The notes beneath the pieces are model-generated. The model saw only the letters and a list, made by a program, of their open reading frames with translations, was not told the DNA's origin and made no database searches. Source: Sphingomonadales bacterium (lineage in GTDB: Bacteria; Pseudomonadota; Alphaproteobacteria; Sphingomonadales; Sphingomonadaceae). From it: a stretch of DNA of 63,665 bases. Location of the stretch: contig JAIEOM010000001.1 in the NCBI GenBank assembly GCA_019750455.1, positions 1-63,665 on the forward strand, read 5' to 3'. Below, one piece after another: positions 38,752 through 43,554 of this stretch. Within the stretch, counting starts at the first letter, position 1. Each line of letters opens with the position of its first letter. The position numbers and the translations under genes are program-made.

Positions 38752-38928
38752 TTATCCGCCAATCCCGCCGGGCCGGGTGAGGGCGTGCCAGATCACGTAG
38801 AACCACCCGAAAAATCCATGGACGATTGCCCAGATGATCGACTGGTGAAGGCTCCAGCTGATCGCCACGGCGATCGCGCTGCCAAGACCGATGCCCGCCT
38901 GCGTGGCGGTGTTGCGCGCCGTGCTCAC
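38752..38928 (-). CDS. 58-aa small membrane protein at the end of the psp operon
   Basis: Own translation from GTG: VSTARNTATQAGIGLGSAIAVAISWSLHQSIIWAIVHGFFGWFYVIWHALTRPGGIGG*; GTGA overlap with upstream stop; missing from ORF track. Confidence 0.65.
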   Translation of the reverse strand: MSTARNTATQAGIGLGSAIAVAISWSLHQSIIWAIVHGFFGWFYVIWHALTRPGGIGG

Positions 38929-39176
38929 AGTTCCACTCCGCTGGCGATGGCTTCGAGCTTGCGGATTCTCTCCTTGAGATCAGCCAGTTCGATGCGGGCC
39001 GTGCCGAGGTGCGAGCCTTCGTCCGTACCGGTGCCGCCCGGCACCCGGTCGAGTTCGCGGCGCTTCAGCTCAAGCCACCCCTGCCATGCACGCAATGCCG
39101 CGCCCGTCATCACGATGACCGCCACGAGCAGCCCCGCGGTCAGCACGATGGTGGGGTCGAGAAGAACAGTCGTCAT
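38925..39176 (-). CDS. PspB-like small membrane/coiled-coil protein
   Basis: N-terminal TM, then ELADLKERIRKLEAIAS. Confidence 0.7.
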   Translation of the reverse strand: MTTVLLDPTIVLTAGLLVAVIVMTGAALRAWQGWLELKRRELDRVPGGTGTDEGSHLGTARIELADLKERIRKLEAIASGVEL

Positions 39177-39487
39177 TGGTCCGTTCCTTCCGTTCTGTCC
39201 GCGGGCAGCCCCCGCAGCGCTTCGATTTCCGCGGCGATCCGCGCCCGCTCGCGCGCATCGCTGGTGTTGCCGTCAGTGGCGATGCGTTCGAGCACCTTCA
39301 CCCGTTCCCGCAGGTAGGCAAGCTCCTTGCGCGCCGCTTCGAGTTCGGCCCTGCTGCCAGCTTCCTCGCGAGGGACCAGCGTTTCGTTGCCATACTCGTC
39401 CTTGACGATCCCGGCGCGGGCCTTGGCGCGTTCGACCAGGCCCCAGACCACGATCGCAACCAGCGCGACGATCGCCCAGCTGCTCAT
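39173..39487 (-). CDS. PspB-like small membrane/coiled-coil protein
   Basis: N-terminal TM; ELAYLRERVKVLERIATDGN...AAEIEALRG. Confidence 0.75.
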   Translation of the reverse strand: MSSWAIVALVAIVVWGLVERAKARAGIVKDEYGNETLVPREEAGSRAELEAARKELAYLRERVKVLERIATDGNTSDARERARIAAEIEALRGLPADRTEGTDQ

Positions 39488-39846
39488 TACGCCTTGCCCT
39501 TGTCCGTCAGGCCTTCCAGCGCCCGGTCACGCAGTGCGTCGATCTCGGCGCCCAGATGGTAGCCGCCGTCGGTGACGATGCGTTCGACGTTCGCGAGCCG
39601 GTCCTTCATCGAACCGAGTTCGGCGCGCAGTTCGGCGTTCTCCTGGGTGAGCAGGGTGACGCGGTGTGCGGTTTCCTTGTCGGAACCCGGCTTCAGCGAC
39701 TGGCCCCACATGCCTTCGAGCGGATAGCCGTTCTTGATCTTCATCCGGGTGGTCTGGAACGATACCAGAATGCCCATCGCACCCAGCACGAAGCCGCCGC
39801 CGATGATCCACCCGAGATAGGGGAGAAAGTCCGCCGGTGACATCAA
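39487..39846 (-). CDS. PspB-like small membrane/coiled-coil protein
   Basis: N-terminal TM; NGYPLEGMWG; MKDRLANVERIVTDGGYHLGAEIDALRD. Confidence 0.75.
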   Translation of the reverse strand: MMSPADFLPYLGWIIGGGFVLGAMGILVSFQTTRMKIKNGYPLEGMWGQSLKPGSDKETAHRVTLLTQENAELRAELGSMKDRLANVERIVTDGGYHLGAEIDALRDRALEGLTDKGKA

Positions 39847-40157
39847 ACACGCTCCTTGTTCAGGGCGGGCACATCGCGCAGGGCCTCGATTTCGGCGCTG
39901 AGCGAATAGCCGCGGTCGGTGACGATCTTTTCGAGCACGATCATGCGGTCCTGCATGGCATCGAGCTTGTCGTGGAGCGCCTTGTTCTCGGCCTTGAGGC
40001 GGTGCGTTTCCGCATTGTCGGATCGCTCGATCTTGCCGCCCCAGTCATTCTCGAGCGGATAGCCGTGCCGGGCGCGGATCCAGTTGTTGATGAGCCATCC
40101 GCCGGTGCAGACCAGCACGATCGAGACGATCGAAAGGGTGCTGCCGAAGTCCATCAC
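39843..40157 (-). CDS. PspB-like small membrane/coiled-coil protein
   Basis: N-terminal TM; HGYPLENDWG; MQDRMIVLEKIVTDRGYSLSAEIEALRD. Confidence 0.75.
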   Translation of the reverse strand: MMDFGSTLSIVSIVLVCTGGWLINNWIRARHGYPLENDWGGKIERSDNAETHRLKAENKALHDKLDAMQDRMIVLEKIVTDRGYSLSAEIEALRDVPALNKERV

Positions 40158-40465
40158 ACGCGCTCCTTGCCAAGGCCGAGCGGGACGCCCGCGCCGGCTT
40201 CGTCCACCCGGCGCGTGTCGCGCAGGGCCTCGATCTGGGTGGCGATATCGTAACCGCGGTCGGTGACAATGCGTTCAAGCACCTGCACCCGGTCTTCGAG
40301 CCGCTGGATCTGGCCGACATATTGCGCGGCTTTCTCGGCGGTCTGCTCGGCGGTGGCGCCGACCTGCATTTCGGCCATCTTCTGTTGGTGCTTGGTCCAG
40401 ATGGCGACGATCGGGATCATCATCGCGACGATCGGGATCATCACCCCAAGGGTTCCTGCGTCCAT
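40154..40465 (-). CDS. PspB-like small membrane/coiled-coil protein
   Basis: N-terminal TM; RLEDRVQVLERIVTDRGYDIATQIEALRD. Confidence 0.75.
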   Translation of the reverse strand: MDAGTLGVMIPIVAMMIPIVAIWTKHQQKMAEMQVGATAEQTAEKAAQYVGQIQRLEDRVQVLERIVTDRGYDIATQIEALRDTRRVDEAGAGVPLGLGKERV

Positions 40466-40495
40466 GATACTTGTCCCTGTTGCTGGCGTTGGTGC

Positions 40496-40873
40496 TTAGC
40501 GCAGCCGCTCGATCTCGGCGGTCAGGCGCGGGTTGCTGCTGACATAGTGCGCTTCGACAGCGGCGAGGCGGCGGTCGACATCGCGGAAGCTCGCGCGGAT
40601 TTCGCGGGCGGTGCGCTTGGGGTTCTGGCGGATGCCCTGCCAGTACTTCTGCTCGTTCTCGTCGCGGTAGAGATAGGGCGGCTTCTTGTTGAGCAGGAAG
40701 CCAGCCAGAAGGTAGGCCATGATCGTCGCACCGCCGGTGGGCCACATCGACAGGAAGGCAACCAGCCGAACCCAGAAAACATTGACCCCGGTGTAATCGG
40801 CAATCCCGGCGCAAACTCCCATCAGCTTGCCATTGTGCTTGTCGCGGTAAAGCGTGGTGCGGGGGCTGTTCAC
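40496..40873 (-). CDS. pspC: PspC domain protein
   Basis: LYRDKHNGKLMGVCAGIADYTGVNVFWVRLVAFL. Confidence 0.92.
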   Translation of the reverse strand: MNSPRTTLYRDKHNGKLMGVCAGIADYTGVNVFWVRLVAFLSMWPTGGATIMAYLLAGFLLNKKPPYLYRDENEQKYWQGIRQNPKRTAREIRASFRDVDRRLAAVEAHYVSSNPRLTAEIERLR

Positions 40874-41175
40874 GAGCGGGTTCCTTTCTTCTCGGCGATC
40901 AGTGCTTCGAGTTCGCGAAGTTGCTGGTTGTCCTTTTCCTGATCGGCGATCAGGCGACGGGCCGGGGTGAAGGCCGGGTCGTCCGTGGCGACCAGCCGCT
41001 CGACCGTGTCCATCCGTTCATCGAGCCGCTTGGCGAGGTTGTAGAGTTCCTCCAGCAGCACCTCGTCATCGGCGGTGATGGTGGGCGCGGTCTTCCACTT
41101 GGTCATGTAGTGCAGCACCATCCAGGGCAGTGCGACAAAGATCGCGCCGATGGCCATGACGCCTTCGATATCCAT
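40870..41175 (-). CDS. pspB: PspB family envelope stress protein
   Basis: N-terminal TM then LYNLAKRLDERMDTVERLVATDDP; between pspA and pspC with ATGA overlap. Confidence 0.85.
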   Translation of the reverse strand: MDIEGVMAIGAIFVALPWMVLHYMTKWKTAPTITADDEVLLEELYNLAKRLDERMDTVERLVATDDPAFTPARRLIADQEKDNQQLRELEALIAEKKGTRS

Positions 41176-41178
41176 GAC

Positions 41179-41862
41179 TTAATTCCCCTCGCTGTCAGTT
41201 TTGCCGAGCGCCTTCTTCATCGCGGCAAGTTCATCATCAATCGCGTCCGAACCGGCGAGCGCCGCGATTTCATCGGCGAGCGACGGGGTCTTGCTTTCGG
41301 CGATCTGCAAGGCGTCGGCGCGGCCTTCGGCGTAGTCGACGCGGCGCTCGAGCTGGTCGAAACGGGCAAGCGCCTCGTCGGTGCGCTCGGTGCTCATCAG
41401 GGTGCGCAGCTTGACGCGGTTTTCGGCGCTTTCGAGGCGCGCGGCGATGGCGGTCTGGCGGCTGCGGGCTTCGCGCAGGCGGTGCTGCAGCTTGGCAATG
41501 TCTTCCTCGTAGGCGCGCAGCGCGTCGTCGAGCACCGCGATCTCGGTCTTGAGCTGGTCGGCCATGTCGCCGGCCTTCTTCTTCTCGACCAAGGCTGCGC
41601 GGGCGAGATCTTCGCGATCCTTGCTGAGCGCGAGCTGCGCCTTTTCGGCCCAGTCGGCCTGGAGCCGGTCAAGCTTCACGCAGTGGCGGTGCATTTCCTT
41701 CTGATCGGCGATGGTGCGCGCGGCAGAGGCGCGGACTTCGACCAGGGTTTCCTCCATTTCGAGGATGATCATGCGGATCATCTTCTGCGGATCATCAGCC
41801 TTGTCGAGCATGTCGTTGAAGTTGGCGGCAATGATGTCGCGGGTACGGCTGAAAATGCCCAT
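41179..41862 (-). CDS. pspA: phage shock protein A
   Basis: MGIFSRTRDIIAANFNDMLDKADDPQKMIRMIILEMEETLVEVRASAARTIADQKEM; SD GGAG before 41862. Confidence 0.95.
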   Translation of the reverse strand: MGIFSRTRDIIAANFNDMLDKADDPQKMIRMIILEMEETLVEVRASAARTIADQKEMHRHCVKLDRLQADWAEKAQLALSKDREDLARAALVEKKKAGDMADQLKTEIAVLDDALRAYEEDIAKLQHRLREARSRQTAIAARLESAENRVKLRTLMSTERTDEALARFDQLERRVDYAEGRADALQIAESKTPSLADEIAALAGSDAIDDELAAMKKALGKTDSEGN

Positions 41863-42151: not shown

Positions 42152-42337
42152 TCAGGCGATCTCGACCAGTGCGCCGGCCGGTGCGGCGGGCTGGGCGAAC
42201 GAGGCGGCGCTGGCCGCCCCCGGCTGAAGTTGCGAGGACAGCGCGATCATCATCACCATTGCGGCGATGCTGGCCATCGCGGCATGCCCGAGCTTGGAAC
42301 TCCAGAAGCTGGCCTGACTGGCGTTACGGTTGATCAT
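42152..42337 (-). CDS. 61-aa small membrane protein, first gene after the sigma54 promoter
   Basis: MINRNASQASFWSSKLGHAAMASIAAMVMMIALSSQLQPGAASAASFAQPAAPAGALVEIA. Confidence 0.65.
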   Translation of the reverse strand: MINRNASQASFWSSKLGHAAMASIAAMVMMIALSSQLQPGAASAASFAQPAAPAGALVEIA

Positions 42338-42379: not shown

Positions 42380-42396
42380 TGCATGGGGCGTGCCAA
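42380..42396 (-). promoter_or_regulatory. sigma54 promoter of the psp operon
   Basis: Minus strand TTGGCACG-CCCC-ATGCA, GG-N10-GC spacing, divergent from pspF. Confidence 0.8.
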
Positions 42397-42495
42397 ACCG
42401 TGAAAATGGCGGAATTGCGCGCTTTTTGACCAGACGCACCGAAGTGGCGTTGGCCTCTATTGCCAAGCCTTGGGAATTTTCACTATAGTTTGGAC

Positions 42496-43554
42496 ATGAA
42501 GCTCGAGAGCCAGTTCATCGGCCAATCCGGGGCCTTTCTCGACGCGGTCGAACGCGCTTCGCGCGCTGCGGCCATGAACCGCCCGGTGCTGGTGATTGGA
42601 GAGCGCGGCACGGGTAAAGAACTGATCGCCGAACGCCTTCACCGGCTGTCGACCCGCTGGGACGAGCCGCTGGTGACGATGAACTGCGCGGCCTTGCCCG
42701 AAACCCTGATCGAGGCCGAGTTGTTCGGGCACGAGGCAGGGGCTTTCACCGGCGCCACCAAGGCCCGCGCAGGGCGGTTCGAGGAAGCCGACCGAGGCAC
42801 GCTGTTCCTCGACGAGCTGGGCACGCTCAGCATGGGCGCGCAGGAGCGGCTGCTGCGCGCGGTCGAATATGGCGAGGTCACCCGCATCGGTGCCTCGCGC
42901 CCAATCCGCGTCGATGTGCGCATCGTGGCCGCAACCAACGACGATCTGCCCGCGCTCGCGGCGGCAGGCGAATTCCGCGCCGATCTGCTCGACCGATTGA
43001 GCTTCGAGGTCATCACGCTCCCCCCGCTCAGGGTGCGCGAGGGCGATATCGGCGTTCTTGCCGAATATTTCGGCCGGCGCATGGCGGCGGAGCTGGATTG
43101 GGACCGCTGGCCGGGCTTTGCGCCCCATGTGATGGATGCGCTGGAAGATCACCCCTGGCCCGGCAATGTGCGCGAGCTGCGCAATGTCATCGAACGTGCG
43201 GTTTATCGCTGGGACGTGCCGGATATGCCGATCGCCCATGTCCAGTTCGATCCCTTCGACAGCCCGTGGCGGCCACGTTCGCCCGAGCATCGGCGCGGTA
43301 ACGTGGCGGCAGGCGCGGCCCCGGCCGGCGGCGGGCATGCTGCTCCGTCTCCTGCCGCGGTCAATCTCGATACCATCGAGGACCTGCGCGCGGCGGTTGA
43401 TGCGCATGAGCGCGCGATCCTAGCCCATGCGCTGGGCAAGCACCGCTGGAACCAGCGCCAGACCGCCCGTGCCCTCGGGCTGACCTATGACCAGTTGCGT
43501 CATTGCATCCGGAAGCACGGCCTGATGGAGGGGCAGGACGAGGGTAATTCCTAA
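42496..43554 (+). CDS. pspF: sigma54-dependent enhancer-binding protein PspF
   Basis: GERGTGKELIAERLH Walker A, GAFTGA motif, LFLDELGTLS, C-terminal Fis-type HTH, no receiver domain. Confidence 0.93.
   Translation: MKLESQFIGQSGAFLDAVERASRAAAMNRPVLVIGERGTGKELIAERLHRLSTRWDEPLVTMNCAALPETLIEAELFGHEAGAFTGATKARAGRFEEADRGTLFLDELGTLSMGAQERLLRAVEYGEVTRIGASRPIRVDVRIVAATNDDLPALAAAGEFRADLLDRLSFEVITLPPLRVREGDIGVLAEYFGRRMAAELDWDRWPGFAPHVMDALEDHPWPGNVRELRNVIERAVYRWDVPDMPIAHVQFDPFDSPWRPRSPEHRRGNVAAGAAPAGGGHAAPSPAAVNLDTIEDLRAAVDAHERAILAHALGKHRWNQRQTARALGLTYDQLRHCIRKHGLMEGQDEGNS

Follow-up and report, generated by a model that had tools for sequence, protein, structure and literature searches.

The window, that is, the whole stretch of 63,665 nucleotides analysed here, comes from a Sphingomonadales bacterium of the family Sphingomonadaceae and holds a psp operon on its minus strand, in which pspA, pspB and pspC are followed by five tightly packed small genes (40465–38925), referred to as alpha, beta, gamma, delta and S5, then by another small ORF, S6, and by sufE (Table 1). 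The NCBIfam equivalog cut-offs are passed by PspA, PspB, PspC and PspF of the window and by none of the array proteins. An earlier note on this DNA had described five consecutive small genes after pspABC, joined by overlaps or a short gap, and its coordinates proved correct, with overlaps of 1 or 4 nt and one gap of 30 nt; S6, which lies in the same interval (38928–38752), had been missed. The note had also set the locus apart from the classical single PspB. This stands in so far as the set is expanded, but not as a replacement, since a normal single pspB and pspC are both present.

Table 1. Features of the psp operon and its downstream array, listed from pspF to sufE.
Feature	Position	Strand	Evidence and remarks
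pspF, divergent sigma54 activator	42460..43554	+	TIGR02974 E 1.5e-143, above cut-off
sigma54 -24/-12 promoter of psp operon	42380..42395	-	TGGCACGCCCCATGCA; 1 mismatch to consensus
Small ORF (61 aa) between sigma54 site and pspA	42152..42337	-	homologues in 14/60 family loci
pspA	41179..41862	-	TIGR02977 E 1e-82 from ORF residue 97; likely start MGIFSRTRDI
pspB	40870..41175	-	TIGR02976 E 1e-23, above cut-off
pspC	40496..40873	-	TIGR02978 E 1.7e-36, above cut-off; C-terminal tail VEAHYVSSNPRLTAEIERLR
alpha, PspB-like with PspC-type tail	40154..40465	-	TIGR02976 E 7e-7, below cut-off; 30-nt gap after pspC
beta, juxtamembrane HGYPLE..WGG motif	39843..40157	-	4-nt overlap with alpha
gamma, juxtamembrane NGYPLE..WG motif	39487..39846	-	most constrained class; 4-nt overlap with beta
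delta, almost always last tail-bearing member	39173..39487	-	1-nt overlap with gamma
S5, truncated-tail relative, array's last member	38925..39176	-	LKERIRKLEAIASGVEL; 4-nt overlap with delta; hhalign 91% delta, 96% eps
S6, 58-aa TM protein without coil	38752..38928	-	IGLGSAIAVAISWSLHQSI; 4-nt overlap with S5; lineage-limited
sufE	38708-38301	-	next gene past S6

The sigma54 site at 42395–42380 provides the PspF/sigma54 promoter expected of a psp operon. Of 56 loci, 51 have an equivalent site (with at most two mismatches) ahead of pspA, and just 1 of 55 has such a site within the array. Judging from the sequence, the array is probably co-transcribed with pspABC from this promoter. The 61-aa ORF that follows the promoter (42337–42152, minus strand) encodes a hydrophobic stretch and ends in VEIA/VELA, mostly VELA in its homologues. 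In the literature on Zymomonas, the hypothetical gene ZMO1062 is grouped with the psp genes (PMC3495753); it is possibly the counterpart of this ORF before pspA. The frame of pspA is itself open for about 96 codons 5' of the usual start (42150–41863, minus strand), likewise in many relatives, and this upstream stretch may be either a real extension or a start artefact.

At the other end of the operon, S6 occurs in 5 of 61 loci, the window included; it is limited to a few genera and strongly conserved there, with dN/dS of 0.08–0.42 in close relatives. Automatic assignment had placed it with beta and PspB; it was taken out manually but slightly contaminates the PspB class HMM, and this accounts for the trailing 'PspB' labels in the order listing of the 80 loci described below.

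All array proteins are predicted to have a single TM segment near the N-terminus, as the earlier note had proposed. Positive charge follows this segment, which predicts an N-out/C-in topology, as for PspB. A juxtamembrane motif of the HGYPLE..WG type is common to beta (21 of 28 members) and gamma (35 of 37). The AlphaFold model of gamma consists of a TM helix (residues 4–39), a loose linker and a second helix (57–118; mean pLDDT 83), whereas that of alpha is one long helix (3–90; mean pLDDT 78), and these single-chain models of a TM helix plus a long helix lend support to the predicted architecture only. Among solved structures, no relative was found for alpha or for E. coli PspC; a weak match to a potassium channel structure is probably due to composition.

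According to the earlier note, four of the five genes share a C-terminal signature and the fifth is shorter; the shared signature proved to be more than chance. Within the window, pairwise phmmer searches linked beta to gamma (E = 1e-14), alpha to beta (1.5e-8), alpha to gamma (1.6e-6) and beta to delta (1e-4), and class HMMs built without the window sequences recovered the other tail-bearing members of the window with E-values between 3e-4 and 3e-25. Profile–profile comparison with hhalign, on which the earlier note had staked the kinship of the array, gave probabilities of 96–99.9% among alpha, beta, gamma, delta and eps (a class that is found in other arrays), compared with 0.3–10% when these pairs were run against reversed profiles and at most 29% for reversed-profile controls over all comparisons. 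S5 lacks the full tail, and its profile link is mainly to delta and eps and weaker to the other classes; a delta HMM derived solely from other genomes reaches the S5 of the window (E = 5e-4), and 49 members of the S5 class were collected over the surveyed loci. On this evidence, alpha, beta, gamma and delta are homologous to one another, and S5 is linked to delta. Chance similarity of coiled coils is excluded by the reversed-profile controls and the HMMs built without the window, and also because, of 299 genomes from across the phylum, 265 gave no match to the delta HMM.

The earlier note had likened the signature to the C-termini of both PspB and PspC. Kinship was found with both, most clearly with PspB in alpha and delta, but most classes are nearer to PspC. 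No array protein of the window reaches the curated PspB cut-offs: alpha comes closest, with 29.4 bits against TIGR02976 (cut-off 51.7) and 19.1 bits against PF06667 (cut-off 25.6), and the others score below alpha or have no match. The alpha HMM nevertheless matches E. coli PspB over residues 2–64 (E = 4e-5), as does the delta HMM (E = 2e-4), while the beta, gamma and eps HMMs alone gave no significant match to E. coli PspB, the only match of the gamma HMM there being E. coli PspC (E = 0.18). For the coil, aligned with PspB by hhalign over 17–29 columns, probabilities were 89% for alpha, 84% for beta, 76% for gamma and 67% for delta.

For the tail, aligned with the C-terminal region of PspC from the same family, they were 95% for gamma, 94% for beta, 91% for eps, 90% for delta and 66% for alpha, in alignments that are short and coiled-coil-like (32–38 columns, 79 for beta; reversed controls 2–29%). 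The shared pattern is hE(R/K)hhTD-x-aromatic-x-L-x(3)-I-x-x-L, which falls at about positions 82–121 of the TIGR02978 profile. In the window, the array proteins all stay below the curated PspC cut-off; numerous members of the alpha and gamma classes match TIGR02976 or TIGR02978 at scores under the cut-off (for TIGR02978, 26 of 30 gamma and 27 of 34 alpha/alpha2 proteins). Going by these alignments, the signature common to most classes is nearer to the C-terminal tail of PspC than to PspB. Array proteins differ from PspC in having one TM segment and no PspC domain, PF04024 being matched by none of those in the window; the tail alone is common to both. With PspB they share a single N-terminal TM segment, a C-terminal helix that is predicted to be cytosolic and a place in the psp operon; unlike PspB, they carry a PspC-type tail after the coil and form several paralogous classes beside the canonical pspB.

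Copy number, for which the earlier note suggested a taxonomic survey, was followed across 60 genomes of the same family, about one per genus and with the genome of the window included. Of these, 58 have pspA, and 57 of the 58 psp operons encode one to seven array proteins, most commonly three or four. The typical arrangement is pspF', pspA, pspB, pspC, array, S5 and sufE, with S5 or sufE absent from the stretch in some loci, and gene junctions are mostly short overlaps or gaps. The classes follow a near-fixed order of alpha, beta, gamma, [eps], delta, S5 and sufE: beta precedes gamma in 19 cases to 0, delta precedes S5 in 48 to 0, and alpha precedes delta in 28 to 1. An identical order was seen in a second, independent set of 80 loci drawn from named records, which was fetched by gamma and is biased towards gamma-bearing genomes; the gamma protein of the window is 95% identical to that of the closest named locus, in keeping with a Porphyrobacter/Erythrobacter-like sphingomonad as the source. 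Because the classes are common to the family and keep this order, a recent local duplication is excluded.

In a tree of 118 members, gamma, delta and eps each form a single group (SH-aLRT 99, 84 and 81, respectively), alpha and alpha2 are intermixed, and class labels change 8 times compared with 75 in shuffles; the deep forks are unsettled because alignment columns are few. The array genes are under purifying selection in close relatives, with dN/dS of about 0.07–0.5 for alpha, gamma, delta and S5, and gamma is about as constrained as pspA; beta comparisons at about 28–36% identity were ignored, since a paralogue is compared there where beta is absent. Together with the tight chaining of the genes, these ratios exclude spurious ORFs.

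The array and pspA are jointly absent from two genomes of the family, in which neither a pspF match above the cut-off nor a delta match was found. The G050 genome has pspFABC but no array at all, and the array is therefore dispensable. In another (G007, locus L088), pspA is split into two ORFs, either by a frameshift or by a sequencing error, and pspBC and the array are still there.

The delta model found no copies outside the array in the genome of the window, and in a sample of 190 genomes of the class the delta and gamma models gave matches only in the family of the window and one other, two weak matches aside. Elsewhere in the order, families carry delta-like orphans, one or two each, of which most are not near psp; in one such family the orphan lies directly 3' of rpoD (L132:4396-4668, L143:4405-4677). 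In two genomes of one related family, a delta-like gene is found inside the psp operon, after a second, short PspC-domain gene that stands between it and pspC (L133:3936-4190, L137:4040-4276). Beyond the class, one or two orphan copies occur in some genomes of the phylum, and one genome there has a tandem pair of array-like small proteins with no psp genes nearby (L236:3968-4517). Since orphan relatives occur away from psp genes, the tail need not always serve PspA. It is likely that the psp operon took in an orphan PspB-like small protein, which then diversified in the family's ancestor.

The C-terminal, cytosolic domain of Yersinia PspC binds PspA in the on state and so releases PspF (PMC5596341), and in E. 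coli the leucine-zipper region of PspC is required for the interaction with PspA (PMC3068692). We propose, with a probability of about 0.5, that the array encodes an ordered set of accessory Psp subunits, each combining a PspB-like scaffold with a PspC-type docking tail, that feed into PspA/PspF. The scaffold would comprise the N-terminal TM helix, a class-specific juxtamembrane segment and a cytosolic coiled-coil helix, ending in the docking tail, and the proteins would be produced together with PspA, PspB and PspC from the PspF/sigma54 promoter. Given the homology of the array tail to that of PspC, the tails would most likely bind PspA, or else the coils of PspB or PspC. If they bind PspA, several membrane subunits could therefore draw PspA off PspF and keep it at the membrane, while the divergent TM and juxtamembrane parts would set the stimulus or the assembly partners of each class and so divide the labour between them.

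More tentatively, the array might make the Psp response a multi-input one, in which classes with their own TM and juxtamembrane sensors compete for PspA and different insults are integrated on one PspA–PspF switch. The resemblance of the tails to the PspA-capturing part of PspC suggests several parallel inputs rather than the one of the textbook system, and combinatorial sensing by the array, as the earlier note envisaged it, would be plausible.

Somewhat more doubtful is a role of the array proteins as effectors or anchors rather than sensors, in which they would be induced with PspA and offer multivalent membrane docking to PspA oligomers with no switching of PspF. Their site downstream of pspABC, the probably shared promoter and the PspC-type tail suit anchors and sensors equally; however, the distinct juxtamembrane motifs conserved in beta and gamma, and conservation at the level of the class, suggest more than generic anchoring. 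It is improbable that the array is a separate module of small membrane proteins, such as coiled-coil proteins of division or the envelope, whose only tie to psp is shared regulation. Such a module would fit the orphan relatives that other families carry at a distance from psp, those beside rpoD included, and the occasional weak matches to FtsL/DivIC, but the array genes of this family lie inside the psp operon, delta has no match where pspA is absent, and the tail is homologous to the PspA-binding tail of PspC. Nor do we give much credit to redundant duplicates of PspB that have gained no new function and persist through drift or for their dosage: a copy number of 0–7 across genera is in keeping with this, as is the resemblance that alpha and delta bear to PspB, but the classes are old and orthologous with a near-fixed order, each gene is under purifying selection and the tail is of the PspC type, while the canonical pspB is retained apart from the array.

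Variation of this kind has been touched upon before. Ravi et al. (2024) named 'PspB duplicates' in psp operons (PMC11237479, example AOL22920.1), which, like the array, are extra PspB-like genes, but in one main-text phrase without classes, order, tail or taxonomic range. The same study reported PspC fused to a divergent PspB, where a PspB-type coil is likewise joined to PspC, although in a fusion rather than in an array of separate single-TM genes. The literature searched yielded no account of the classes or their order, of the PspC-type tail or of the range across the family, and no transcript, interaction or mutant data for these genes. In the passages on psp of Zymomonas stress transcriptomes, pspABC are reported as induced, in one of them ZMO1062 as well, and no mention of the array genes was found in those passages.

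In a large and well-sampled family, the psp operon is thus about twice its textbook length, and its extra members are named by no curated family. A series of subunits with one constant docking tail and a variable membrane part, with losses that lend themselves to comparison between genera, amounts to a natural experiment by which sensing could be told apart from docking, and the array bears on how PspB and PspC detect membrane damage.
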